Shown piece by piece: positions 7,573 to 41,152 of a DNA stretch of 64,000 nt. Position 1 is the first letter of the stretch. Every line of letters starts with the position of its first letter. The notes beneath the pieces were generated by a model that ran no database searches, was not told the DNA's origin, and saw only the letters and a list, made by a program, of their open reading frames with translations. Location of the stretch: NCBI RefSeq assembly GCF_003581645.1, contig NZ_QXFK01000014.1:186001-250000 (forward strand), read 5' to 3'. This stretch comes from Pelagerythrobacter aerophilus (GTDB taxonomy: Bacteria; Pseudomonadota; Alphaproteobacteria; Sphingomonadales; Sphingomonadaceae). The position numbers and the translations under genes are program-made.

Positions 7573-8964
7573 ATGAACGCCCACTCTCCCAGCTATCTCG
7601 CGCGCGGGCGGACGGACGCAGAAGATCGCCTGATCGAAGCGGACGAGCTGCTCGCCGCCTTGCAGCGAAGCTGCGGGGGCGAGATTCCCGGTGTGCTTGC
7701 GGTGCCTGCGCTGCTCGAACGGGTGCGCCAGGCACGTGCCGCCGGCACCCGCCTCAGCGGTGCGATCGAGGCATTCGGGGGCGAAGACATCATTCACGCC
7801 TGGATCGAGGTCTTTCCGCACTCCGGAAACGAAGCGGGCTGCTCGATCGGCATTGCCGACTGGCAGGTATCGCCGGCGGTACGCGAGGATAATGCGCAGG
7901 CGGCGGTGCGGCACCTAGAGATCGAGCGCAGTGTGGCCGATCTGTGGGCGCGGCTCGATCCGGCGCAAGGCGTGCTCGCGGCCGAAGCCCATGCGCCGGA
8001 CCTCGCCGCGCTTGCTCTCCGCATGATGCAGGGCGCAGGGCGGCCATGGACCGATTTCGTCGAGCTGCCCGGTGCGGTCCACGAGCAGCCGATGCACTGG
8101 CGCTTGCTTGACGGCCTGGCGGTCCGGGTGCCGGAATCGCCGCGGGAATGGACCGTAACACTGGCGCCCCTCGGGGGTCCTGAGCCCGGGCAGTCCGGCT
8201 TCGAGCTCTACCTCGCATCGGACGCCGTGCTTCCCACCGGGGAAGCTCCGCCCCACGCGGAGTTGGCCGGACCTCCTGCCACTCATCTGATCGGGCGAAA
8301 TCTTGCGCCCGTTCTGCGTCAACCGATCGCGCGGATCATCGCCAATGCGGAGACGATCCGCACCCGCCTCGCGGGGCCGCTGGCAGAGGAATACAGCAAC
8401 TACGCGGCCGATATCGCGGCTGCGGGGCAGCACCTTCTGGCACTGATCGAGGACTTGTCGGATCTCGAAGTCGTGGAGGCCGAAGGCTTCGCTACGGCGC
8501 CCGACGAGATCGACCTCGGCGATGTCGCCCACCGTGCCGCTGGGATTCTGGCGGTGCGCGCGAAGGAGAAGGGGATAGCCCTGACTGCGCCACCCGCAGG
8601 ACGTCCCGTGCCTGCGGTGGCCGAATTCCGCCGCGTCCTGCAGATTCTGCTCAACCTCGTCGGGAACGCTATCCGCTATTCGCCCGAAGGCTCGCAAATC
8701 CGTCTGGAACTTTCAGCCGAGGGGGCGCGTGCCAGTGTGAGCGTGATCGATGAAGGACCGGGGCTCGACGCGGAGCAGCAAGCGCGGGTGTTCGAGAAGT
8801 TCGAAAGATTGGGCCGCAGTGGTGACGGCGGGTCCGGGCTCGGGCTCTACATTTCGCGCCGCCTTGCGCGCGCTATGGGCGGCGACCTCACGGTGCAGAG
8901 CGAACTCGGCAGCGGGGCCAACTTCACGCTCGAGCTACCGGCGGCTCACAAGTCTCAGGAATAA
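7573..8964 (+). CDS. Histidine-kinase-like protein with degenerate H-box
   Basis: 463 residues, soluble. Residues 1-240 are a sensor-like region without a recognised domain. Residues 241-300 form a HisKA-like dimerisation helix pair, but the H-box reads LAPVLRQPIARI, where the normal form is SHELRTPL; Pro246 sits at the histidine position. The catalytic domain is complete: N-box LNLVGNAIRYS, G1 DEGPGL, F-box FEKFERLG and G2 GSGLGLYIS. It could bind ATP and perhaps phosphorylate another partner in trans, but not itself at the usual site. The ATG is chosen because it follows the upstream stop by 2 bases; longer in-frame starts would overlap the neighbour by more than 250 bases. Confidence 0.75.
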   Translation: MNAHSPSYLARGRTDAEDRLIEADELLAALQRSCGGEIPGVLAVPALLERVRQARAAGTRLSGAIEAFGGEDIIHAWIEVFPHSGNEAGCSIGIADWQVSPAVREDNAQAAVRHLEIERSVADLWARLDPAQGVLAAEAHAPDLAALALRMMQGAGRPWTDFVELPGAVHEQPMHWRLLDGLAVRVPESPREWTVTLAPLGGPEPGQSGFELYLASDAVLPTGEAPPHAELAGPPATHLIGRNLAPVLRQPIARIIANAETIRTRLAGPLAEEYSNYAADIAAAGQHLLALIEDLSDLEVVEAEGFATAPDEIDLGDVAHRAAGILAVRAKEKGIALTAPPAGRPVPAVAEFRRVLQILLNLVGNAIRYSPEGSQIRLELSAEGARASVSVIDEGPGLDAEQQARVFEKFERLGRSGDGGSGLGLYISRRLARAMGGDLTVQSELGSGANFTLELPAAHKSQE

Positions 8965-8967
8965 TTG

Positions 8968-9000
8968 GGTTGCCGGCGAACGACTGCGCTGCCGGCAACC
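8968..9000. terminator. Bidirectional hairpin between convergent genes
   Basis: GGTTGCCGGC at 8968-8977 and GCCGGCAACC at 8991-9000 form a perfect 10-bp stem with a 13-base loop. It sits between the converging kinase-like gene and gltA. Neither strand has a proper T-run after it, so it may slow or end transcription with help, or protect the 3' ends. Confidence 0.6.
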
Positions 9001-9017
9001 TGAAGAAGGCGTGAAGC

Positions 9018-10304
9018 TCAGCGCTTCTCGACCGGAACGTAGTCGCGCTCTGTCGGGCCGGTGTAGAGCTGACGTGGGCGGCCGATGACCTGGCCGGGAT
9101 CCGAGATCATCTCGTTCCACTGCGCGACCCAGCCAACCGTGCGAGCCAGCGCGAAGAGGGCGGTGAACATCGTGGTCGGGAAGCCGATCGCCGAAAGGAT
9201 GATGCCCGAGTAGAAGTCCACGTTCGGGAAGAGCTTCTTTTCCTTGAAGTAATCGTCGCTCAGCGCGATTTCTTCGAGCCGCAGCGCAGTCTCGAACACC
9301 GGATCGGTGACCTTGAGCGCTTCGAACACCTCACGCACCGTCTTCTGCATCACCGTCGCGCGCGGATCGTAGTTCTTGTAGACGCGGTGACCGAAGCCCA
9401 TCAGGCGGAACGGGTCGTTCTTGTCCTTGGCCCGCTCGATATAATGCGGAATGCGATCGGGCGTGCCGATCTCGTGCAGCATGTTGAGCGCCGCCTCGTT
9501 CGCTCCCCCGTGCGCCGGGCCCCAAAGGCAGGCGATACCGGCCGCGACGCAGGCGAAGGGATTGGCCCCGGACGAACCAGCGAGCCGGACGGTGGAAGTC
9601 GACGCGTTCTGCTCGTGATCGGCGTGGAGGATGAAGATCCGGTCCATCGCCTTTTCGACCGCGGGATGCAGCTCATATTCCTCGGCCGGAACACCGAACG
9701 TCATGCGCAGGAAGTTGCCGGTGTAGCTCAGATCGTTCTGCGGATAGAGGAACGGCTGACCAATCGAGTACTTGTAAGCCATCGCCGCGATCGTCGGCAT
9801 CTTCGCGATCAGGCGATGGCTCGAGATCTTGCGATGCTCGGGGTCGGAGATGTCGGTGCTGTCGTGATAGAAAGCCGACAGAGCGCCCACGACGCCGCAC
9901 ATGATCGCCATCGGGTGGGCATCGCGGCGGAATCCGCGATAGAACGTCGCAAGCTGCTCGTGCAGCATCGTATGGCGGGTGATCGTGTAGTTGAAATCGT
10001 CGAGCTCGTTCTGCGACGGCAGTTCGCCGTTCAGCATCAGGTAGGCGACTTCCATGAAGCTCGAATGTTCGGCGAGCTGCCCGATCGGGTAGCCGCGATG
10101 GAGCAGGACGCCTTCCTCGCCGTCGATGTAGGTCAGCGCGCTTTCGCAACTGGCGGTCGACTTGTAGCCCGGGTCGAAGGTGAAGAGGCCGGTGCTGCCA
10201 TAGAGCTTGCGGATGTCGACGACCTCCGGCCCCACGCTCCCCTGGAGCACTGGAAATTCATGGGTCTGGCCGCCCAGCTCGAGTTTCGCCTGCTTGTCCG
10301 CCAA
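9018..10304 (-). CDS. gltA: Citrate synthase (type II)
   Basis: 428 residues, the length of the hexameric Gram-negative citrate synthases. It condenses oxaloacetate and acetyl-CoA to citrate at the entry of the TCA cycle. Family motifs are clear: an N-terminal beta-strand domain, [20 protein letters not shown], the catalytic segment [14 protein letters not shown], and [14 protein letters not shown] with the second catalytic histidine. The start has GAGGAG eight bases upstream (AAGAGGAGAACGAATTTGG region read on the minus strand). It lies 21 bases downstream of gltX on the same strand and may share its transcript. The upstream partner of the same pathway, pyruvate dehydrogenase, is also in this window. 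Confidence 0.97.
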
Positions 10305-10325
10305 ATTCGTTCTCCTCTTTGATGC

Positions 10326-11738
10326 CTAGCCCTGCTTCGCCGGAGCGGTCTGCGCGTCGATCCGCGCAAGCGCCTCTTCCCGCCCGAGCAGGACCAGCAC
10401 ATCGAAAATACCCGGGGACGTGGTTGTCCCGGTCAGCGCTGCGCGCATGGGTTGCGCGAGCTTGCCGAGGCCCAGTTCGAGCTCTTCGGCGAGTGATTTG
10501 GTAGTGGCTTCGAGAGCCTCGATTGTCCAGTTCTTTTCGGCTCGCAAACGATCGGCAATTCGACCTAAAATTGCGCGCGCATCGCCATCGAGCAGCGTTT
10601 CGGCCTTTTCCGTCAGTGCGAGCGGGCGGGTCTTGAACAGAAACGCCGCGCCCTCAGCCAACTCATCGAGATCGCGCGCGCGGGTCTTGAGCACGGGCAT
10701 GGCCTGCGCGAGCAGCGCCTCGTCGGCGTTCGTTCCCATCCGATCCGCCACCAGCTTCGCGAGCCGCGCATCGTCAGCCTCGCGGATATAGTGGCCGTTG
10801 AGGTTCTGGAGCTTCTTCAGATCGAACCGCGAAGGGCTCTTGCCCACACCGTCGAGATCGAACAGCGCGATCGCTTCCTCGCGCGTGATCTCCTCGCGAT
10901 CGCCGTGCCCCCAGCCGAGGCGGAGCAGATAGTTGAACAGCGCCTCGGGTAGAATGCCGAACTCGTCACGATAGGTTTCCGCGCCGAGCGCGCCGTGACG
11001 CTTGGACAGCTTGGCTCCGTCGCTGCCGTGGATCAGCGGAATATGAGCGTAGCTCGGCTCCGGCCAGTTCATCGCGCGATAGATCGGCAATTGGCGGAAG
11101 GCGTTGTTGAGGTGATCGTCACCGCGGATGACGTGGGTGACACCCATGTCGTGATCGTCCACCACCACCGCCAGCATGTAGGTCGGAGTGCCGTCGGCGC
11201 GCAGGAGGACGTAATCGTCGAGTTCCTCGTTGCGCACCGTCACTCGGCCCTGGACCCGGTCCTCGATCACCGTCTCGCCTTCATTCGGCGTCTTGAGCCG
11301 GACGACATAGGGTGCGCCGAGCGGAGCGTCGGCCGGATCGCGGTCGCGCCAGCGGCCGTCGTAACGCAGCGGCTGTTTGGCGGCGCGCTGTGCGGCGCGC
11401 ATTTCCTCGAGCTCCTCGGGCGTCGCATAGCACTTGTAGGCGTGCCCTGCGGCGAGGAGCTGCTCCGCTATTTCGACGTGGCGCGCGCCGCGTTCCGACT
11501 GGAACACGACGTCGTCGTCCCATTCGAGGCCGAGCCAGGCGAGCCCGTCGAGAATCGCATCGATCGCTTCCGGGGTAGAGCGCTTGCGGTCGGTATCCTC
11601 GATTCGGAGCAACGCCCTGCCGCCGTGATGGCGCGCGTAGAGCCAGTTGAACAGGGCCGTACGGGCGCCGCCGATATGCAGGAATCCGGTCGGCGATGGG
11701 GCGAAGCGCGTCACAACCTGTCCGCTATCGCTTGCCAT
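10326..11738 (-). CDS. gltX: Glutamyl-tRNA synthetase
   Basis: 470 residues, class I aminoacyl-tRNA synthetase that charges tRNA-Glu in the cytoplasm. The HIGH-type motif is [20 protein letters not shown] at about residues 21-40, preceded by [10 protein letters not shown], and the KMSKS-type motif is KLSKRHG near residue 250. The second half (anticodon-binding helical bundle) is complete. The start region overlaps the 5' end of the divergent ComEC gene's possible longer reading frame, so the two promoters must lie back to back in a very short stretch. Alphaproteobacteria often carry two gltX copies with different tRNA preference; a second copy is not in the window. Confidence 0.96.

Positions 11739-32318: not shown

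Positions 32319-32319
<1 letters not shown>
31969..32319 (+). CDS. NTF2-like (DUF4440/SnoaL-type) protein between pdhA and pdhB
   Basis: 116 residues with the small cone-shaped NTF2-like fold pattern: helix [20 protein letters not shown], then [20 protein letters not shown], and beta-strands ending in [14 protein letters not shown]. It starts at TTG 31969, with GGTGGAGGAG at proper spacing in the end of pdhA. Its stop overlaps the pdhB start (TGATG), so all three are translationally coupled. NTF2-like folds include isomerases and non-catalytic binding proteins; no catalytic residues can be assigned. A role with the E1 complex is inferred from position alone. Confidence 0.75.
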
Positions 32320-33725
<1,406 letters not shown>

Positions 33726-33738
33726 CCTGGGGCGGCGC

Positions 33739-34422
33739 TCAGCCGAGCGTCGCCACCCCGTCGTACACGTTGCAATCCGCGGTCGCGTCCGGGTCCCCGG
33801 CATCGTGCTGGTAGACTTGCGATAGATCGCGATTGTCGCGCACGTTGAAGGCGGCGGTGGCGCTTATCTTGTCGGCATGGGTGAAGGCGCGCGAGATCAG
33901 CGGCTGATAGTCATACACGACCTCGACGAACATCACCGCCTCGCCTTCGAACGCGATGATCTCCTCGCCGGGCGGTCCCATGCCGGGAATGCCGCTCATG
34001 AGGCCGTCGCCGGCGTGTCCGTAGCTTGAGGTGTGGACCAATTCGCCCTTGCACCGCTGCCAGTGAATGTACTGCTGGTCCTGGGTTCCCGGCACGACTT
34101 CCAGACTGGATAGGATCACCCGCCCGTGCTTGTAGAGGTCGAAGTTCCCGGCCTGGACATGCGCGCCGTAAAGCACGTCGTTGATGTCGGTCTCGTAAAG
34201 CTTGGTTTCGCCGAGCAGCGAGTTCTCGCCCACGCGCGACGCGTTATCCGCGATCAACACCGAGATCTGACTGATACGCATCTGCACGACCGCGCGATGC
34301 GCCGATTCCACACCCCAGAGGCCCGCGGTCATGACCAGCGGCGCGGCGAGCGCGAATTCGGTAAGTGCGGTGCCCGACGTCGAGCGGCACATACGCCTGA
34401 GGAGAGCGCGTAGCGGGCTCAT
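33739..34422 (-). CDS. TadE-like protein (copy 2, third gene of trio)
   Basis: 227 residues. The N-terminus is the TadE pilin-like pattern: basic residues, then TALTEFALAAPLVMTAGLWG, one TM segment at about 20-42. The outside part shares with its paralogue at 36974 the segments GRVILSSLEVVPG and IHWQRCKGE, and VEVVYDYQPLISRA near the end. TadE/TadF proteins are pseudopilins of Flp/Tad pili. No tadA, tadB, tadC or flp gene is in the window, so these may serve a Tad system elsewhere or act alone. The start overlaps the stop of the gene before it (ATGA). Confidence 0.8.
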   Translation of the reverse strand: MSPLRALLRRMCRSTSGTALTEFALAAPLVMTAGLWGVESAHRAVVQMRISQISVLIADNASRVGENSLLGETKLYETDINDVLYGAHVQAGNFDLYKHGRVILSSLEVVPGTQDQQYIHWQRCKGELVHTSSYGHAGDGLMSGIPGMGPPGEEIIAFEGEAVMFVEVVYDYQPLISRAFTHADKISATAAFNVRDNRDLSQVYQHDAGDPDATADCNVYDGVATLG

Positions 34423-35006
34423 CCGCAATTCCTGACCAGCGACGAGACATCCTGCTCGCCGTAAGGCTGATTGCGCAGCACCGTCGTCGCCTGGGTGGTG
34501 AACGTGTCCGGCATGCCGATGAAAGCGCTGATGGCGAAAGCGCGCGTGTAGCTCACGGTCACGACATAGAGCACCGCATCGCGCGCGCCGCCGAGGCCTT
34601 CTGCACCGCGATCCTCATCCCAGATGCCGTTGCCGTTCGCATCCTCGAACGGTTCGCCGTCGTTGCAGGTGCCGTTGCCGTCGATATCGCTGAAATCCTC
34701 CGGTCGTGCGACGTCGGAGAAGCGGGCGTAGGCCTTGCGCGAGAACGTCACCTCCGCGCCCGGCACGATGGCGTGAACTGCATCGGCCACCCGTGCGTCG
34801 ATCTCGCCCATCCGCGAATGCGCGCCTTCGATGCCGGAATCGCGCGCGGCTTTCTGGATGGCGCCCTGGAGCTGCGACTGGACGTAGTAGTTGTAGCCCA
34901 TGTCGAACATGCCCAGCAGCATCAGCAGCAGCACCGGCGCCACCAGCGCGAATTCGACCAGGGCGGCACCCCCGCGATCGACGAAAAGATTGCGCGCCCG
35001 CGTCAT
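34419..35006 (-). CDS. TadE-like protein with calcium-loop-like segment (copy 2, second gene)
   Basis: 195 residues. The N-terminal pilin-like segment is GGAALVEFALVAPVLLLMLL (residues 12-31), continuing MFDMGYNYYVQSQLQGAIQ. Residues 107-132 contain two Asp/Asn/Gly-rich loops, DIDGNGTCNDGE and DANGNGIWDED, similar to EF-hand or dockerin-type calcium loops. These are followed by GAEGLGG and a beta-rich end with QATTVLRNQPYGEQ, nearly the same as its paralogue at 37627. The start ATG overlaps the stop of the vWA gene (ATGA), which rules out the longer open frame running into it. Confidence 0.8.
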   Translation of the reverse strand: MTRARNLFVDRGGAALVEFALVAPVLLLMLLGMFDMGYNYYVQSQLQGAIQKAARDSGIEGAHSRMGEIDARVADAVHAIVPGAEVTFSRKAYARFSDVARPEDFSDIDGNGTCNDGEPFEDANGNGIWDEDRGAEGLGGARDAVLYVVTVSYTRAFAISAFIGMPDTFTTQATTVLRNQPYGEQDVSSLVRNCG

Positions 35007-36898
35007 CGGCTCACCCGCAAGTCGCTCATGCTCTCGGCGATCGCGGCGAACGAGGCGTTGAGTTCGGCCGCGTCGGCGGCTTCGAAGTAATGTCCCTCGC
35101 CGGCGCAGTTCTTCATCACGTCGGTCAAGGTGATGCCGAAGCCGATGACCCATACCGTGACGTTCTTCCGGCGTACTTCTCCGCAAGCGAAGGCAAAACG
35201 CTTCTCGACGGTTTCGGCAAGCGAGAGCGGGGAGTCCGGCGACCACCGCCGTTGGTCGAGCGGTTCGAAGCCATAGCTTGAGTAGCTGAGATCGAGCGGC
35301 GCGGTTTCGCCGTCGGTGAGGAAGATCAGGTGGCGACTGGTCATCGAATTGGCGGCATCCGCATTTTCCGCTGCGAACAGGCCGGTCGGGGAGATGAGGC
35401 GGCCGCCCCAGATCATTCCGATGTCGTGATATGTGCTGCCTTCCGCCCGCAGGGTTTCGAGATAGTCCTGCAACTCGTCGGCCGTCATCGCGGACAGGTT
35501 GCGCGCCGGCGCAGGGCAGGCGGCGGAATCGAGCCCGACCGGGGAAACATAGTCCTCGGTGGTGATCGTCTCCCTGGTGTCGAACTTGCCCCTGCCGTCC
35601 CAGCGCAGTGCGCGGCCGAAGATGTAGGAGGGTATCATCGGCCGCCATTGCGTCGACGGATTGCCGCTGACCGGAATCCGATCGAGGTCGAGGTCCAGGG
35701 CGCGGCTCAGGTCCACGGCGCTGAAATCCGCGATCTCGTAGGTATCGCGCTCCTCCACGCAGCCGTTTCCGGTCGTGCGCCAGTCACCGACATCGTACTC
35801 GATCTGCGCATATCGCCATTGCGCTTCGCTCAGGAGCGCGGGTTCCTGGATCTTCTTGTAGGTGTCGACATAATTGTCGTACGTGTGCTGGCGCACGATG
35901 CAGGTGGTATCGTTCAGAACGGTCGAATAGCTGTTCCCATTGCGCGTGCGAAGATAAGTCCACTCGTGGCGGACGCCGGGTATGGGCGTGAGAACGTCCG
36001 TCAGAGTCTCCGTGACCTCGGTGCCGGTGGTGATTTTCCCCGACGGCTTCGAAGGACAGTGGTATCCTTTCAATTCGGTGAAGCTGGCCTTGTAGGACGT
36101 GTAATTGCTCACCGTGATCGAGCCGGATACGCGTTTTGCAGGCGTCGTATATGTCCGCGACGCAGGGCTGGTCAGGTCGTCATGCTTCTCGCGCGACTGA
36201 TAGCTCCATGTCCCAGCGACCCATTCGTCGCGCAGCAGATGGCCCACATGGACATTGGTCGAATAGGGGACAAAGCCGTAGCGGATGCGCGAACCGGCCT
36301 GCGACGCGGCGGCGAGCTGCGCATGGAAGGTCGCAACCGTCTGCTTCATCGCATCGAGGCGCGAGAGCGTATCGCCCGGATTGCGCTGCGCCATGGAACC
36401 TGTGACGTCGAGCACCATCATCACGTCGGTGTTGGCAAAGTCGATCTGCGCCTCGCACTCGACGCGCACCGGAACGACCGTGAAGCCGAAGATCTGCATG
36501 ATCGTGGTCGGGACGTCGACCGTTGCCACGCCTGAGATCGCGAAATCGTCCTCCAGTGTCATCACGAAATCGCGGTCCTCGGTGCCGTAGGAGCCCGAGC
36601 GGAAGTTGATGTTGAAGAAGCGTTGTCCGGTCTCGGCAACGTCGGGCGAAATTTCACCGGTGGCGGCGGCTTGCGCGCCCAGCCGCTTTCGCGCGGCGAG
36701 CACCCCGGCATCACAGGCCTGCTGTAGCCGGCTCTGGCTGAGGTAGGAGCGCCCCATGTCGATCCCGCCGCCGACCATGGCGAGGATCGGCGCAATCGCC
36801 GCGGCAATGATGGCCAGCGTGTTGCCCGACCGATCGCGCACGAGGCGCGTCAGCAATCCGGCGACCGGCCGAGGCGGCGAGGCGAGACGATTTCCCAC
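35003..36898 (-). CDS. TadG-like protein with von Willebrand A domain (copy 2, first gene)
   Basis: 631 residues. The N-terminal TadG/pilin-like part has DRSGNTLAIIAAAIAPILAM with one TM segment (about 25-46), then GIDMGRSYLSQSRLQQACDA. From residue 158 a vWA domain begins, with the metal-site motif DVTGS (D164, T166, S168) in MMVLDVTGSMAQ; later elements are YHDIGMIWGGRLISPTGLFA, HLIFLTDGE and VTVWVIGFG. It probably sits in the inner membrane with its large domain in the periplasm. The paralogue at 38220 has the same order of motifs but is 78 residues shorter. It heads the second trio. Confidence 0.85.
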   Translation of the reverse strand: MGNRLASPPRPVAGLLTRLVRDRSGNTLAIIAAAIAPILAMVGGGIDMGRSYLSQSRLQQACDAGVLAARKRLGAQAAATGEISPDVAETGQRFFNINFRSGSYGTEDRDFVMTLEDDFAISGVATVDVPTTIMQIFGFTVVPVRVECEAQIDFANTDVMMVLDVTGSMAQRNPGDTLSRLDAMKQTVATFHAQLAAASQAGSRIRYGFVPYSTNVHVGHLLRDEWVAGTWSYQSREKHDDLTSPASRTYTTPAKRVSGSITVSNYTSYKASFTELKGYHCPSKPSGKITTGTEVTETLTDVLTPIPGVRHEWTYLRTRNGNSYSTVLNDTTCIVRQHTYDNYVDTYKKIQEPALLSEAQWRYAQIEYDVGDWRTTGNGCVEERDTYEIADFSAVDLSRALDLDLDRIPVSGNPSTQWRPMIPSYIFGRALRWDGRGKFDTRETITTEDYVSPVGLDSAACPAPARNLSAMTADELQDYLETLRAEGSTYHDIGMIWGGRLISPTGLFAAENADAANSMTSRHLIFLTDGETAPLDLSYSSYGFEPLDQRRWSPDSPLSLAETVEKRFAFACGEVRRKNVTVWVIGFGITLTDVMKNCAGEGHYFEAADAAELNASFAAIAESMSDLRVSR

Positions 36899-36973
36899 CC
36901 TTCGCTGTTATCGAGCCGCAGTAAGATTATCGTGAATGACTGGGGTTAATTTATTGAGTTCGTTCGCTTCGGT

Positions 36974-37636
36974 TCAGCAGGCGCTTTTGGTAGCTGCCGG
37001 GTCCGGGTTGAAGATATTGGTCAAATCGCGATCGTCGCGGACGTACATCGCGGCCGTCTTGTAGATCGTCTGTTCCGGGATCAGACCGCGGAACACGACC
37101 GGCTGATAGTCATAGAAGACCTCGGCATACATGATCGCGAATCTCGGTTCCGCCTGCACCATGCGCGTGCCAGCGCCCATCCCGGCAAACGACGTTCCCG
37201 TTTCTCCCTCGCCTTCCGCGCCGTAACGTGAAGGATAGGACTTGTCTCCGCCGCAACGCTGCCAGTGGATCCACTGGCCACCGTCTCCATTCACCTCAAG
37301 GCTGGAGAGAACGACACGGCCGTTTGCCTTCAAGTTCAGATTGCCGCCCTGTAACTGCGCGGCGCGGATCGACTCGTTGGCGTCGAGTTCCCGGAAGCGG
37401 GGATTGCTGCCGACCACCTCCTGCTTGGCGCGCGAGGCGTTGTCGGCCAGCGATATCGCGATCTGGTTCACCCGCAGATGTGCGGTCGTGTAGTTGACGA
37501 GCTCGAGGCCGCCGAGGCCGAGCGTGACCATGATCGGCAGCGAATAGGCAAACTCGATCAGAGCTACGCCATCACGCGCGCCGGCGAGCGTGCGGAATTC
37601 GCGCGTCACCCACGAAGCAAGGCGCGTCACGGACAT
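36974..37636 (-). CDS. TadE-like protein (copy 1, third gene of trio)
   Basis: 220 residues. The N-terminus DGVALIEFAYSLPIMVTLGL (about residues 22-41) is pilin-like with one TM segment. The rest shares GRVVLSSLEVNGDGG, IHWQRCGGDKS and AEVFYDYQPVVFRG with the paralogue at 33739. Both end with Asp-rich sequence followed by DRDLTNIFN or DRDLSQVYQ. It overlaps the previous gene by 10 bases. The 75 bases downstream separate the two trios. Confidence 0.8.
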   Translation of the reverse strand: MSVTRLASWVTREFRTLAGARDGVALIEFAYSLPIMVTLGLGGLELVNYTTAHLRVNQIAISLADNASRAKQEVVGSNPRFRELDANESIRAAQLQGGNLNLKANGRVVLSSLEVNGDGGQWIHWQRCGGDKSYPSRYGAEGEGETGTSFAGMGAGTRMVQAEPRFAIMYAEVFYDYQPVVFRGLIPEQTIYKTAAMYVRDDRDLTNIFNPDPAATKSAC

Positions 37637-38223
37637 ATGCGCACCGTCTTGCGGGCTGCTTGCTCACCGAACGGCTGGTTGCGCATGACGGTGGTCGCCT
37701 GCGCCGTGGCCCGTTGCTGCAAGCCGATCATGGACCAGAGAGGAAAGAGGCGATCGTACCCGACTGTGACTTCGTAGTAGACGACATCGTCCGCCCCGCC
37801 GAGCCCGTCGGCGCCGATGTCATCGTCCCACTGGCCGTTGCCATTCTGATCGGTGAAGCACTCCGTGATATCGTACAGGTCGTTGTTGTTGGTGTCGTCA
37901 TAGTCCTCCGGCACGCCGATGTCGCTGAACGTGACGTAGTTGGAGCGCTTGATGTCGATATCCTCGTCAGGAATGAACGGCATGACGGCCTGGACGCTCG
38001 TCCGCACGCTCTCGTCGATCGTGGCTTGCGCCGTACGCCCGCTCTCCAAGCCGGCGTCGCGCCCCGCGTCCTGCACCGCGCCCTGGAGCACCGACTGCAT
38101 GTAGAGCCCATGACCGAGGTCGAGCACGCCGAAGATCAGCGTCAGCAACACCGGAGCCACGATCGCGAACTCGATGATCGTAACGCCCGCTGTGTCGCGG
38201 AGAAGAGCACGCAAGCGGTTCAT
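37627..38223 (-). CDS. TadE-like protein with calcium-loop-like segment (copy 1, second gene)
   Basis: 198 residues. Pilin-like N-terminus AGVTIIEFAIVAPVLLTLIF (12-31), then GVLDLGHGLYMQSVLQGAVQ. Two Asp/Asn-rich loops follow, DDTNNNDLYD (109-118) and DQNGNGQWDDD (125-135), then GADGLGGADDVVYYEVTVGY and QATTVMRNQPFGEQ. The order and spacing match the paralogue at 34419. Starts at an ATG that overlaps the TadG-like stop (ATGA). Confidence 0.8.
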   Translation of the reverse strand: MNRLRALLRDTAGVTIIEFAIVAPVLLTLIFGVLDLGHGLYMQSVLQGAVQDAGRDAGLESGRTAQATIDESVRTSVQAVMPFIPDEDIDIKRSNYVTFSDIGVPEDYDDTNNNDLYDITECFTDQNGNGQWDDDIGADGLGGADDVVYYEVTVGYDRLFPLWSMIGLQQRATAQATTVMRNQPFGEQAARKTVRICP

Positions 38224-39881
38224 TCGCCGAGCCTCAGGTCGGCCACCTGTGAGGCGATGTAGCGGAAGGTGGCTCGGAGTTCGTCGGAGTCGTTGGAGTA
38301 ATACGCTCTATGGCCCGTCGCGCAGTTCTTCATCTGCGTCGTCAGTGACGAACCGAAGCCGATTACCCAGACCGTGTAGCCTTCGTCCTTGATTGCGTTG
38401 CATGCCGCCACAAAGCGGGCATTGTGGTAAGCGATCAGATCATCGGTATCGCTGCCGGAGGGGGCTACACGATGATCGTATTGTTCGATCCCATATGCAG
38501 AGTAGCCACTCAGCACGGGGAGCATTTCGCCATCAGTCATGAAGATGATGTGCCGACTGACTGAGCGATCGGGTTCATCGTTAACGAGATCGGCAAAAAT
38601 TCCGCTCGGACTCGCCAGACGCCCTCCCCAGATCATCCCGATATCGTGATAGGTATTGCCCCGGACGACCAGTCCATCGACATAGTTGTCGAGCCATTCC
38701 GGGATCTCGTTCGGCGTTAGGTCAACTTTTTTGTATAGCTGCATCGGCGAGGGGCAGTTGTCAGCGGCGCTCGCCGAATTGCGCGTCCCGACGACATATG
38801 GGGCGAAATATGGTTTCCAACGTGTATCGTCACTGTTCGGCGCGGAGTTGATGTCAAGGTCGGTGGCGCCGGAGGGGACAGGATCCATATCCCCATCGAC
38901 CACCGTTGCACGCTCTTCGATGCATCCGCCCCAAGAATAGTTGAGTGTCTTGACCCCAACCGTGCCGGACATCGTCGCGAGTCTGAGCATGTCGTATTCA
39001 CGGGGACTTGCGGGGGTACCCTTGATATAGGCCGGATCTTCGTTCCGGCCCTCTCCCTCAACTTTGCTTACGATCTTGACCGAGGTAAAGTCCTTAAGGA
39101 ACGATACATCGATCTCGGTGGGTTCGCGGCGCCATCCGGACAGCTTGTAGACTTGCTCCCATTTCGAGCCCGTCCAAGCCCATTCATGGGAATCGAACAC
39201 CGCCTTCCGCACGTTATAGCGGGCGGTGTTGGCTATATAATCTTTCGGCATGTCGCCGTTGACCAGCAAGTTTCTGGCGTTCACGGTCATGCTGTACGGT
39301 ACGAAGCCGTAGCGTACCCGTACATCGTCGTCGGTTACTGACGAAGCGATGGTCTTGTGGAAGTCCTTCACCGCGTCGCGCAGGCCCTGGATACGGGTAC
39401 CTGCCATGGACCCGGTCGTATCGAGCACGAACATCACATCGGTGTTGGTGATCTGCAGCTCGGCCATGCATCCTGTCGAGAACGACAGCTCGTTGGTGCC
39501 GAACAGCTTCATCAGCACGGTCGGGATCGTCGCTGTGGCCGTACCGTAGACGTCACCGTCCGTGCCGGCTCGGGTATCGAAGGTCACCTCTTCTGCGTCG
39601 ACGATAGCGGAATCGAAGTTCGCATCGAACATGCGCGATGCTTTCGCCTTTTCGGAGGTTTCGAACAGACCAGACTTCGCCATGGCGCGGCGGCCCGCGA
39701 GTACGCCGGCGTCGCAGGCGTTCTGCAACTGCGTCTTGGTCAGATAGCCGCGGCTGGCGTCGACCCCGCCGCCCACGATCGCGAGCAGCGGAATCAGCGA
39801 TGCCGCGAAAATCGGCAGGGTGTTTCCCCCCCGATCGCGCCAGAGCGCTGCAAGCGATGTGGCGATGCCGATACCCCTCAT
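38220..39881 (-). CDS. TadG-like protein with von Willebrand A domain (copy 1, first gene)
   Basis: 553 residues. N-terminal DRGGNTLPIFAASLIPLLAI with a TM segment at about 20-40, then DASRGYLTKTQLQNACDAGV. The vWA domain begins near 148 with FVLDTTGSMAGTR (metal site D154, T156, S158), and later has YHDIGMIWGGRLASPSGIFA, HIIFMTDGEM and YTVWVIGFG. Parts of the gene, about 38.4-39.3 kb, look less GC-rich than the neighbours by eye. It heads the first trio, divergent from the phytoene-synthase-like gene across a 122-base gap. Confidence 0.85.
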   Translation of the reverse strand: MRGIGIATSLAALWRDRGGNTLPIFAASLIPLLAIVGGGVDASRGYLTKTQLQNACDAGVLAGRRAMAKSGLFETSEKAKASRMFDANFDSAIVDAEEVTFDTRAGTDGDVYGTATATIPTVLMKLFGTNELSFSTGCMAELQITNTDVMFVLDTTGSMAGTRIQGLRDAVKDFHKTIASSVTDDDVRVRYGFVPYSMTVNARNLLVNGDMPKDYIANTARYNVRKAVFDSHEWAWTGSKWEQVYKLSGWRREPTEIDVSFLKDFTSVKIVSKVEGEGRNEDPAYIKGTPASPREYDMLRLATMSGTVGVKTLNYSWGGCIEERATVVDGDMDPVPSGATDLDINSAPNSDDTRWKPYFAPYVVGTRNSASAADNCPSPMQLYKKVDLTPNEIPEWLDNYVDGLVVRGNTYHDIGMIWGGRLASPSGIFADLVNDEPDRSVSRHIIFMTDGEMLPVLSGYSAYGIEQYDHRVAPSGSDTDDLIAYHNARFVAACNAIKDEGYTVWVIGFGSSLTTQMKNCATGHRAYYSNDSDELRATFRYIASQVADLRLGE

Positions 39882-40003
39882 GGAACGTCCGAAGTTGTTC
39901 GCCTTGCGCCTACCAAGACGGCATTAAGAAACTCCAAATAGGCGATGCATCTCGGATCGACGTGGCGTGGTCGGCCCGATCGGTGCTATCGGCAGCAGAC
40001 TCG

Positions 40004-40657
40004 ATGGATCTCGGTTTCCTCCCCTTGCCGCAGCGGCTGGCGCTGAACTACGCGCCCGAACGTATTCGTGCGCAGACCGCTGCGCTGTTCGCTCTCGACG
40101 CACGCCTGGGGGAGCTTGTCGCCAAGGCCAACGAGCCGCTGCTCGCGCAGCTGCGCCTGGCGTGGTGGCGCGATGAGCTGAGCAAGCCACAGGAGGAGCG
40201 GGCGAGGGGTGATCCCATACTCGACACGCTCGGCGAGACATGGCCGGGAGAGGAACACGCGCTCATTCGCCTGATAGACGGGTGGGAGCAACTCGTCGGC
40301 GCTGCACCGTTACCAGGTTCCGCTCTCGAAAGTTTTGCCGACGGCCGCGCCGGTGCGTTCGCGGCGCTCGCCCGCCTCGCAGGTGAGCCGTCCGCGGAAG
40401 AGATAGCTCGCGATGCCGGAAGGGTTTGGGCTCTTGCCGATCTCGCGGCCCGGGTGAGTGACGACCAGGAGCGGCAGACGGCGTGTCGTCTGGCGGAAGG
40501 GCAAGAGCATCGCTTCCCGCGCCTGCCCCGCGCGCTGCGTCCGCTGGCGGTGCTGCGAGGGCTTGCGCACCGTGCTCTCCTTCTTGGAGGGGCGCCGCTC
40601 GTCACAGGGAGGCGCGACATTCTTGCTGCGCTGCGTCTTGGCATGATCGGCCGTTAG
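40004..40657 (+). CDS. Squalene/phytoene synthase-like protein, degenerate
   Basis: 217 residues. FLPLPQRLALNYAPERIRAQ, ALFALDARLGELVAKANEPL and QLRLAWWRDELSK match the N-terminal half of trans-isoprenyl-diphosphate synthases of the squalene/phytoene family, in particular the short NDUFAF6-like branch. The usual aspartate-rich DxxxD motifs of active enzymes are not seen, and the protein is 70-100 residues shorter than true synthases. It may be an assembly factor (NDUFAF6 acts on complex I in mitochondria) rather than an enzyme. The start is ATG 40004; an in-frame GTG at 39983 is possible. Confidence 0.7.
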   Translation: MDLGFLPLPQRLALNYAPERIRAQTAALFALDARLGELVAKANEPLLAQLRLAWWRDELSKPQEERARGDPILDTLGETWPGEEHALIRLIDGWEQLVGAAPLPGSALESFADGRAGAFAALARLAGEPSAEEIARDAGRVWALADLAARVSDDQERQTACRLAEGQEHRFPRLPRALRPLAVLRGLAHRALLLGGAPLVTGRRDILAALRLGMIGR

Positions 40658-40693
40658 CCTATGATCCCCCGCGAAGCAGGGGGAGAGTGGACG

Positions 40694-41152
40694 ATGAACC
40701 GGCTCGTGCTGGGGGCGGTCGGCGCCTTGATTCTTGTCGGGATCGGTATGTTCTGGTGGCAGGGAAGGGCCGAGGTCGAGCGAGGAGCTCCACCGCCGTT
40801 GCCCGAAATCGCGGAACCCGATGACGAGACGCTGCCGCAAGTCGATCCCGGAAACTTGAGCGGTCCAGAGCCGCCCGAGGCAACCGAGCTGACGCGCGAG
40901 CAGCGGCGCTTCTTCCGCTACGACCGCAATCGCGACCTCAAGATAACGCGCAACGAGATGCTGTCGACGCGAAGCGACGGCTTCCGCAAACTCGACAAGG
41001 ACGGCAACAATCTGCTGACTTTCGAGGAATGGGCCGTCACGACGGCCGAGCGCTTCGAAGGCGCCGACGCCGATGGAAATGAGGAACTGACTGCGGCGGA
41101 GTTCGCAACGACTGCACCGAAGCGCAATCCGAAGCCGGCATGTAAATGCTAG
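40694..41152 (+). CDS. Membrane-anchored EF-hand protein
   Basis: 152 residues. A TM or signal-anchor segment at 3-21 (RLVLGAVGALILVGIGMFWW) precedes a Pro/Glu-rich linker and three EF-hand-like loops: DRNRDLKITRNE, DKDGNNLLTFEE and DADGNEELTAAE. The second and third have a full set of calcium ligands; the first is weaker. GGGAGAG lies upstream of the ATG at normal spacing. The protein probably faces the periplasm, where calcium is available. The phytoene-synthase-like gene ends 36 bases before. Confidence 0.85.
   Translation: MNRLVLGAVGALILVGIGMFWWQGRAEVERGAPPPLPEIAEPDDETLPQVDPGNLSGPEPPEATELTREQRRFFRYDRNRDLKITRNEMLSTRSDGFRKLDKDGNNLLTFEEWAVTTAERFEGADADGNEELTAAEFATTAPKRNPKPACKC

Follow-up and report, generated by a model that had tools for sequence, protein, structure and literature searches.

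Two old classes of TadG-TadE-TadE trio side by side in Pelagerythrobacter aerophilus: probable alternative tips of one Tad pilus

Introduction

Why should a bacterium carry, next to each other, two complete gene trios that each encode a TadG-like and two TadE-like proteins? The question is raised by a 64,000-nucleotide stretch of Pelagerythrobacter aerophilus DNA (assembly GCF_003581645.1, contig NZ_QXFK01000014.1, positions 186,001 to 250,000 of the forward strand; hereafter the window), in which the two trios occupy positions 33739-39881. An earlier note, made from the letters of the window, had described them as a tandem duplication that may build two alternate minor-pilin or adhesin assemblies; its observation has been confirmed, and its interpretation is partly supported. 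The comparisons presented below indicate that the trios are old paralogues which separated long before the genus arose. We consider it likely, by analogy with characterized systems, that they provide two alternative heterotrimeric tips, each bearing a metal-ion-dependent adhesion site (MIDAS), for one Tad pilus and are fed to a single core.

Results and Discussion

Anatomy and paralogy of the trios

The six open reading frames (ORFs) all lie on the minus strand, in the order G2-E2a-E2b and, after a gap of 75 bp (36899..36973), G1-E1a-E1b, so that the two sets are adjacent and identically arranged, as the earlier note had stated. The first trio, of class II, consists of the TadG-like G2 (38220..39881, 553 aa) and the TadE-like proteins E2a (37627..38223, 198 aa) and E2b (36974..37636, 220 aa); the second, of class I, consists of G1 (35003..36898, 631 aa, GTG start), E1a (34419..35006, 195 aa) and E1b (33739..34422, 227 aa). 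The coupled ATGA overlaps that had been proposed for the locus were found, with a length of 4 nt, at three of the four junctions within the trios, the overlap of E2a and E2b being 10 nt.

BLASTP comparisons revealed that the best match of each protein is its counterpart in the other trio: G1 and G2 share 38% identity in two blocks (E 1e-44 and 9e-44), E1a and E2a 46% over 197 aa (E 1e-62), and E1b and E2b 38% over 208 aa (E 3e-47). Proteins of different type matched one another weakly (E 0.01 to 7e-6), within approximately the first 100 residues. The motifs quoted earlier as common to both trios (VWVIGFG; QATTV-RNQP-GEQ with the Asp/Asn loops; IHWQRC) were all present; several motifs shared by the two trios are conserved across the whole family and therefore provide no argument for a recent duplication.

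Phylogenetic analysis of the trio members, which the note had suggested as a check, supported the view that they are paired paralogues. In the TadG tree (57 rows) the class I proteins formed a single clade (100/100); the root of this tree, set by a class III outgroup with very long branches, is not trusted. The trees of the first (Ea) and second (Eb) TadE-like proteins, which carry class labels taken from the TadG tree, also contained a class I clade (92/82, not starred, and 100/98, respectively). A TadG tree of 47 rows derived from the census described below again united class I, in one clade of 19 (99, Shimodaira-Hasegawa-like approximate likelihood ratio test only), and led to the revision of one model-based class label (G055). 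That the G, Ea and Eb proteins divide into the same classes suggests that the trios are inherited, or travel, as units.

Predicted domains and folds

Domain assignments were made with the curated Pfam cut-offs (PF13400 22.3 bits, VWA 23.8, PF07811 (TadE) 22.9). Both large proteins, each with a pilin-like N-terminus ahead of the vWA domain, exceeded the cut-off for the Tad family PF13400 (G1 41.3 bits, G2 49.6 bits) and hence belong to the TadG family. G2 also matched VWA (32.1 bits); the VWA and VWA_2 scores of G1 (18.3 and 21.2 bits) are both under the cut-off, and its vWA domain is assigned by alignment. PF07811 was matched by E1a (58.7 bits), E2a (54.1) and E2b (23.2), the latter two being placed by the trees as well, and E1b, which remained under the cut-off (13.2), was accordingly placed by its homology to E2b. 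A type IV prepilin-type leader (G/A-X4-E/F) was recognized near the N-terminus of E1a, E1b, E2a (G-X4-E) and E2b. A search of NCBIfam gave no match above cut-off.

The AlphaFold2 model of G2 (mean predicted local distance difference test score, pLDDT, 76.1; predicted template modelling score, pTM, 0.71) shows a long helix (residues 21-70) and pilin-type strands, followed by a vWA domain that is interrupted in sequence by an insert (approximately residues 200-380), with pLDDT below 50 at 246-291. The MIDAS residues of G2 (D154, T156, S158, T410 and D450) were retained in all 32 aligned sequences, and the corresponding columns of G1 agree with them; the DxT/SxS, T and D signature thus lies on a vWA fold that is modelled for G2 and aligned for G1. 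When the G2 model was used as a Foldseek query, the pilus adhesin SpaC ranked first (E 1e-7) among 20 matches at E<=0.001. In VIA-align the pilus vWA adhesins Mfa5 (Z 18.1) and SpaC (17.5) and the vWA minor pilin PilB (17.4) headed the list, above integrin-type vWA domains (15.7-16.5); the 50 chains listed (Z 15.7-18.1) were mostly vWA domains. A search of solved structures with the G2 sequence returned one match, at E 0.43, which was disregarded. No Pfam vWA match was found in TadG of classes III and IV, in the one example of each that was scanned.

E1a was modelled (AlphaFold2, pLDDT 79.0) as a long helix followed by strands. Alignment revealed paired EF-hand-like acidic loops at residues 107-130 of E1a (34617..34688, minus strand) and 110-133 of E2a (37825..37896, minus strand), and two such loops in 44/44 aligned Ea sequences of classes I and II. 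They were present in 110 of 114 ORFs of the class I/II models versus 1/50 of class III and 0/3 of class IV. The 12-residue loop pattern (DxDxDG...E) also arises in 3-4% of E1a and E2a shuffles, and Pfam lists no EF-hand for Ea; the loops may bind calcium.

A probable single Tad core for two trios

The earlier note had stated that no other tad genes are present, which holds for the window as far as it was searched, but not for the genome (3.65 Mb, 19 contigs), which contains the remainder of the Tad core. Profile searches of the genome gave three matches each to TadE and Tad (E<=0.001), all of them trio genes of the window, and the matches to T2SSE, T2SSF and Flp were all located outside it. 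Elsewhere, Peptidase_A24, RcpC, secretin, CpaD, two T2SSF, a T2SSE ATPase and two Flp matches were over the Pfam cut-off. Contig C3 carries the genes for the prepilin peptidase, RcpC/CpaB, secretin, CpaD, an ATPase in the CpaE position and the two T2SSF proteins, C2 carries a T2SSE ATPase that we read as CpaF, and C1 carries the two Flp genes. Together, C1-C3 therefore encode the Flp, prepilin peptidase, RcpC/CpaB, secretin, ATPase and two T2SSF components of a Tad/Flp (type IVc) system. The three remaining T2SSE ATPases (L005 and L007 on C17, L006 on C6) adjoin conjugation-type (Trb/VirB-like) genes, as judged from the ORFs.

The genome has two trios versus one T2SSF pair, and hence more than one trio for what looks like one core. 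Two Flp and two T2SSF matches were found in each of the seven genus genomes, five of which hold two trios and two a single one, and there is one TadB/TadC pair per genome. The idea that each trio has its own Flp was rejected, since the number of Flp genes is two in all seven genomes regardless of the number of trios. The single-trio genomes retain the Flp as well as the T2SSF pair, which suggests that neither trio needs the other.

We propose that the products of each trio would assemble into a heterotrimer at the tip of a Tad (type IVc) pilus, in which two TadE/TadF-type minor pilins accompany a TadG-type protein; this large subunit would display a MIDAS vWA domain that mediates adhesion and contains a variable insert. 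Such a tip would start pilus assembly and thereby expose the vWA domain. Both trios would be served by the one Tad machine encoded elsewhere, and the cell could mount either tip. From the analogous systems we infer the assembly of the tip, the alternation between trios and a role in adhesion or surface sensing, and also the processing of TadG, the trimer, its position at the tip, the choice of tip and the presence of a ligand. Two alternate assemblies, the reading put forward in the earlier note, are likewise the best reading of our data by analogy with the Tad tip trios described in two papers (PMC12075869, PMC12607857).

Several observations weigh against this proposal. (i) The strict G/A-X4-E/F cleavage motif is absent from the first 45 residues of G1 and G2, which are consequently classed as members of the TadG family and not as proven processed pilins. 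(ii) The E1a model has no convincing relative in the PDB (best Foldseek E 0.26); its best Z score (7.0) was obtained with an unrelated enzyme and the PilB minor pilin came third (5.7), the absence of a listed PDB family for Ea being little informative. (iii) All ATPase-family matches of the protein in the CpaE position are under the Pfam cut-off, and the single CpaF is a reading from ORF length and neighbours among four T2SSE matches. (iv) In three of the six genus genomes measured, flp lies 148-305 kb from the trios. (v) The class II-like proteins form a grade and not one clade in both TadG trees, surrounding class I in the tree of 57 rows.

The pdhB slot and its changing content

The trios are flanked by pdhB (32319..33725, plus strand; PF02779, PF02780, PF00364) and by a squalene/phytoene-synthase-like gene (sqs; 40004..40657, plus strand; PF00494, 39.1 bits), neither of which is a pilus gene and both of which were recognized by synteny as the edges of a slot. 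Its order in relatives is gyrA, trmFO, EF-hand protein gene, squalene-synthase-like gene, trios, pdhB, pdhA, ftsB. We took a census keyed on pdhB, without selection on trios. This gene was located in 114 of 118 relatives, and the census comprised 68 of the 70 other family genomes (those with a pdhB match) and the window. Of these 69 cases, 54 had both edges, 13 lacked the left edge and held no recognized trio, and two held trios cut by a contig end. The contents of the islands were assigned by TadG, so that trio types which were not recognized would count as absent.

The survey of relatives that the earlier note had called for revealed islands that are empty, single or paired. The slot was empty in 14 of the 54 islands; class II-like trios alone, a label that takes in deep, low-scoring rows (e.g. 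G060 at 243 bits), occupied 21, of which 17 share one orientation and 4 have the opposite one. Class I alone was found in three, class III alone in two and a class IV-like trio in one. Classes III and I were combined in seven islands, one of which has a doubled class I TadG, and classes II and I in six: the four tandem pairs are all from the window's genus, and two pairs are divergent. Across the relatives as a whole, the trios are tandem, divergent, convergent or single. Where the slot is empty, the distance between pdhB and the squalene-synthase-like gene is 20-277 bp at 12 of the 14 sites and 631 and 1604 bp at the other two. The occupied and empty states switch at least 10 times on the flank-gene tree, on which gain and loss are indistinguishable.

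Two regularities emerged from these islands. In 16/16 cases class I adjoins pdhB, in a single orientation. Class II-like (27) and class III (9) trios shared no island, against about six expected among the 40 occupied ones (hypergeometric 3e-6; 1e-5 with one genome per genus, 35 occupied islands, kinship being otherwise ignored). The place beside pdhB is that of class I, where this is present, and the other accommodates a trio of class II, III or IV that may face either way.

Frequencies are taken from the census in preference to a first survey, in which 101 loci were gathered by similarity to G1 (best 80 of 509) and from 20 hand-picked stretches. Both edges were present in 82 of these loci, or 80 after two repeats were dropped, and all 10 islands with class II alone came from the hand-picked stretches. 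Class I had appeared to be the usual occupant in this G1-based survey (70/80), a view that was abandoned in the light of the census (16/54). Eight of the 101 loci have trios without any edge gene, that is, outside the slot. Genome G021 has two class II trios, of which one is in the slot; according to the ORFs, the second (L137, 8702-10600 onward) lies between a lumazine-synthase-like ORF and an mre-type cluster. Class I TadG is doubled without a second TadE-type pair in L051, L098 and L121 (also G059 and G070).

Alternative explanations

A different use of the two trios would be a composite tip, in which both contribute to one larger structure with two vWA proteins and the pair forms one machine. 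This would fit the tandem arrangement on one strand, with a gap of 75 bp in which a consensus scan revealed no promoter- or terminator-like site (over 33600-40100 the scan gave no promoter-like site and two terminator-like sites, which is below the shuffled counts and uninformative), and also the second trio that stands beside class I in 13 of the 16 islands holding class I. We regard it as unlikely, because one class suffices in the islands with class II-like (21/54) or class I (3/54) alone, and class I is partnered by class III (seven islands) as often as by class II (six). Within the genus, class II and class I occur together in five of the seven genomes and class II is alone in two (G001 and G004), both of which keep two Flp and two T2SSF genes; these two fall in different subgroups of the flank-gene tree, and tblastn found no class I remnant in the slot stretch of either.

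Equally doubtful is the view that only one of the trios acts as a nucleator, the second being a redundant copy that is drifting. The content of the slot does change often, with at least 25 changes of label on the flank-gene tree of the 54 islands (shuffled mean 33), and class I TadG is broken in at least two relatives, by an in-frame stop in L125/G042 (8920-10872) and by a frameshift in L107 (8950-10915). In the window, however, all six ORFs are open, and the G+C content at third codon positions is 0.72-0.84 in the five that were scored (E1a was left out, a longer overlapping ORF having been taken instead). Moreover, the MIDAS and acidic-loop residues are retained in both classes, and the pilin and vWA-core parts of both TadG proteins are conserved in the genus.

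That the trios act apart from the Tad pilus, in some other surface complex, is highly improbable. They do lie outside the tad core cluster, and flp is about 305 kb away in the window's genome; however, the rest of the Tad core is present, the genome has no further TadE or Tad match, and the Flp pair is found approximately 7-8 kb from the trios in three of the six genus genomes measured (G001, G005 and G006). The distance between flp and the slot varies within the genus, which indicates that one of the two loci has moved.

A recent tandem duplication in this lineage, with copies now diverging, can be dismissed almost entirely in spite of the adjacency, common order and closest within-genome similarity of the two sets, since a tree forced to keep the window's G1 and G2 together with those of two near relatives (L047 and L048) cost 608 log-likelihood units (p of the approximately unbiased test, p-AU, 1.7e-76), both classes occur in other genera, and G1 shares 84% identity with its equivalent in strain C41 but 38% with the neighbouring G2. 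An ancient duplication in this slot is possible.

Variation within the genus and a possible tip-exchange locus

Closely related strains differ either by a whole trio, as G001 and G004 do from the other five, or chiefly within the TadG insert. Residues 201-400 of G2, the insert inside the vWA domain (38682..39281, minus strand), are hypervariable across the genus, with 24-76% identity per 50-residue block in six relatives, compared with 70-100% for residues 1-200. The most variable part of G1, residues 251-450 (35549..36148, minus strand), shows 32-76% identity per block in four relatives.

In residues 201-500 of class II TadG, codon differences at positions encoding the same residue exceeded those of the flank genes in 5/5 comparisons (p 2e-6 to 0.02) and those of residues 1-200 in 4/5 (p <0.05); all these comparisons share the window sequence, and the p values are without multiple-test correction. 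No such excess was detected in residues 251-450 of class I TadG (3/3 comparisons). Codon differences are likewise elevated in the sqs and EF-hand genes nearby (0.34-0.69), and regional codon usage may therefore explain the class II excess. On this evidence, the class II insert might perhaps have been imported from a foreign sequence.

We tentatively suggest, with somewhat less than even confidence, that the slot may be a dedicated locus for tip exchange, in which mutually exclusive class II-like, III and IV cassettes occupy one place, a derived class I trio has been added beside pdhB in certain lineages, and the exposed TadG insert is diversified further, for class II perhaps through import of sequence. 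If so, a modular change of the binding target of the Tad pilus, or of the pilus-specific phages able to use it, would have spread through a non-predatory alphaproteobacterial family. The slot offers a natural series within one family (empty, one trio, two trios), seemingly with one core, as counted in the genus. Comparison of strains together with trio swaps can test directly, in this harmless marine/soil group, whether the tip sets the function of the Tad pilus.

Relation to known systems

Genetic experiments in Myxococcus showed that four TadEFG-like trios are interchangeable Tips on one Tad pilus, and the same source proposes interchangeable Tad tips more widely from tad loci (PMC12075869). 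Kil Tips 1-4 of Myxococcus xanthus (KilL/KilM/KilN) resemble the present case in having several paralogous TadE/F/G-like trios for one Tad pilus and a large pilin with an extra domain that varies between trios. In contrast, the TadG proteins described here have a MIDAS vWA domain, the two trios share one slot of changing content, and the hosts are Erythrobacteraceae and Novosphingobium; the likeness is one of description. Calcium appears twice in that paper, one mention being a reference on PilY1.

The Caulobacter proteins CpaJ-CpaK-CpaL, as described in PMC12607857, also consist of two minor pilins and a pilin-vWA protein, CpaL, a minor pilin with a MIDAS and a vWA domain split by an insert. 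Its Dali neighbours SpaC, RrgA, Mfa5 and PilB are also among the structure matches of G2. One trio is described there versus two of distinct class here, the comparison being again one of descriptions. The minor pilin PilB of Streptococcus sanguinis (7b7p, 7ba2) resembles G2 in joining a pilin part to a vWA domain (Z 17.4, root-mean-square deviation 3.0 over 205 residues); it is not a Tad pilus protein and belongs to another kind of type IV pilus, that of a monoderm, according to PMC12075869. Searches of one open-access library brought up no paper that deals with this slot or with paired trios in a sphingomonad.

Neighbouring genes

A gene for a small EF-hand protein (PF13405, PF00036) at 40661-41152 of the window is a conserved neighbour of the slot. 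At the opposite edge, pdhB encodes a lipoyl domain (PF00364) fused N-terminally to the E1-beta part.

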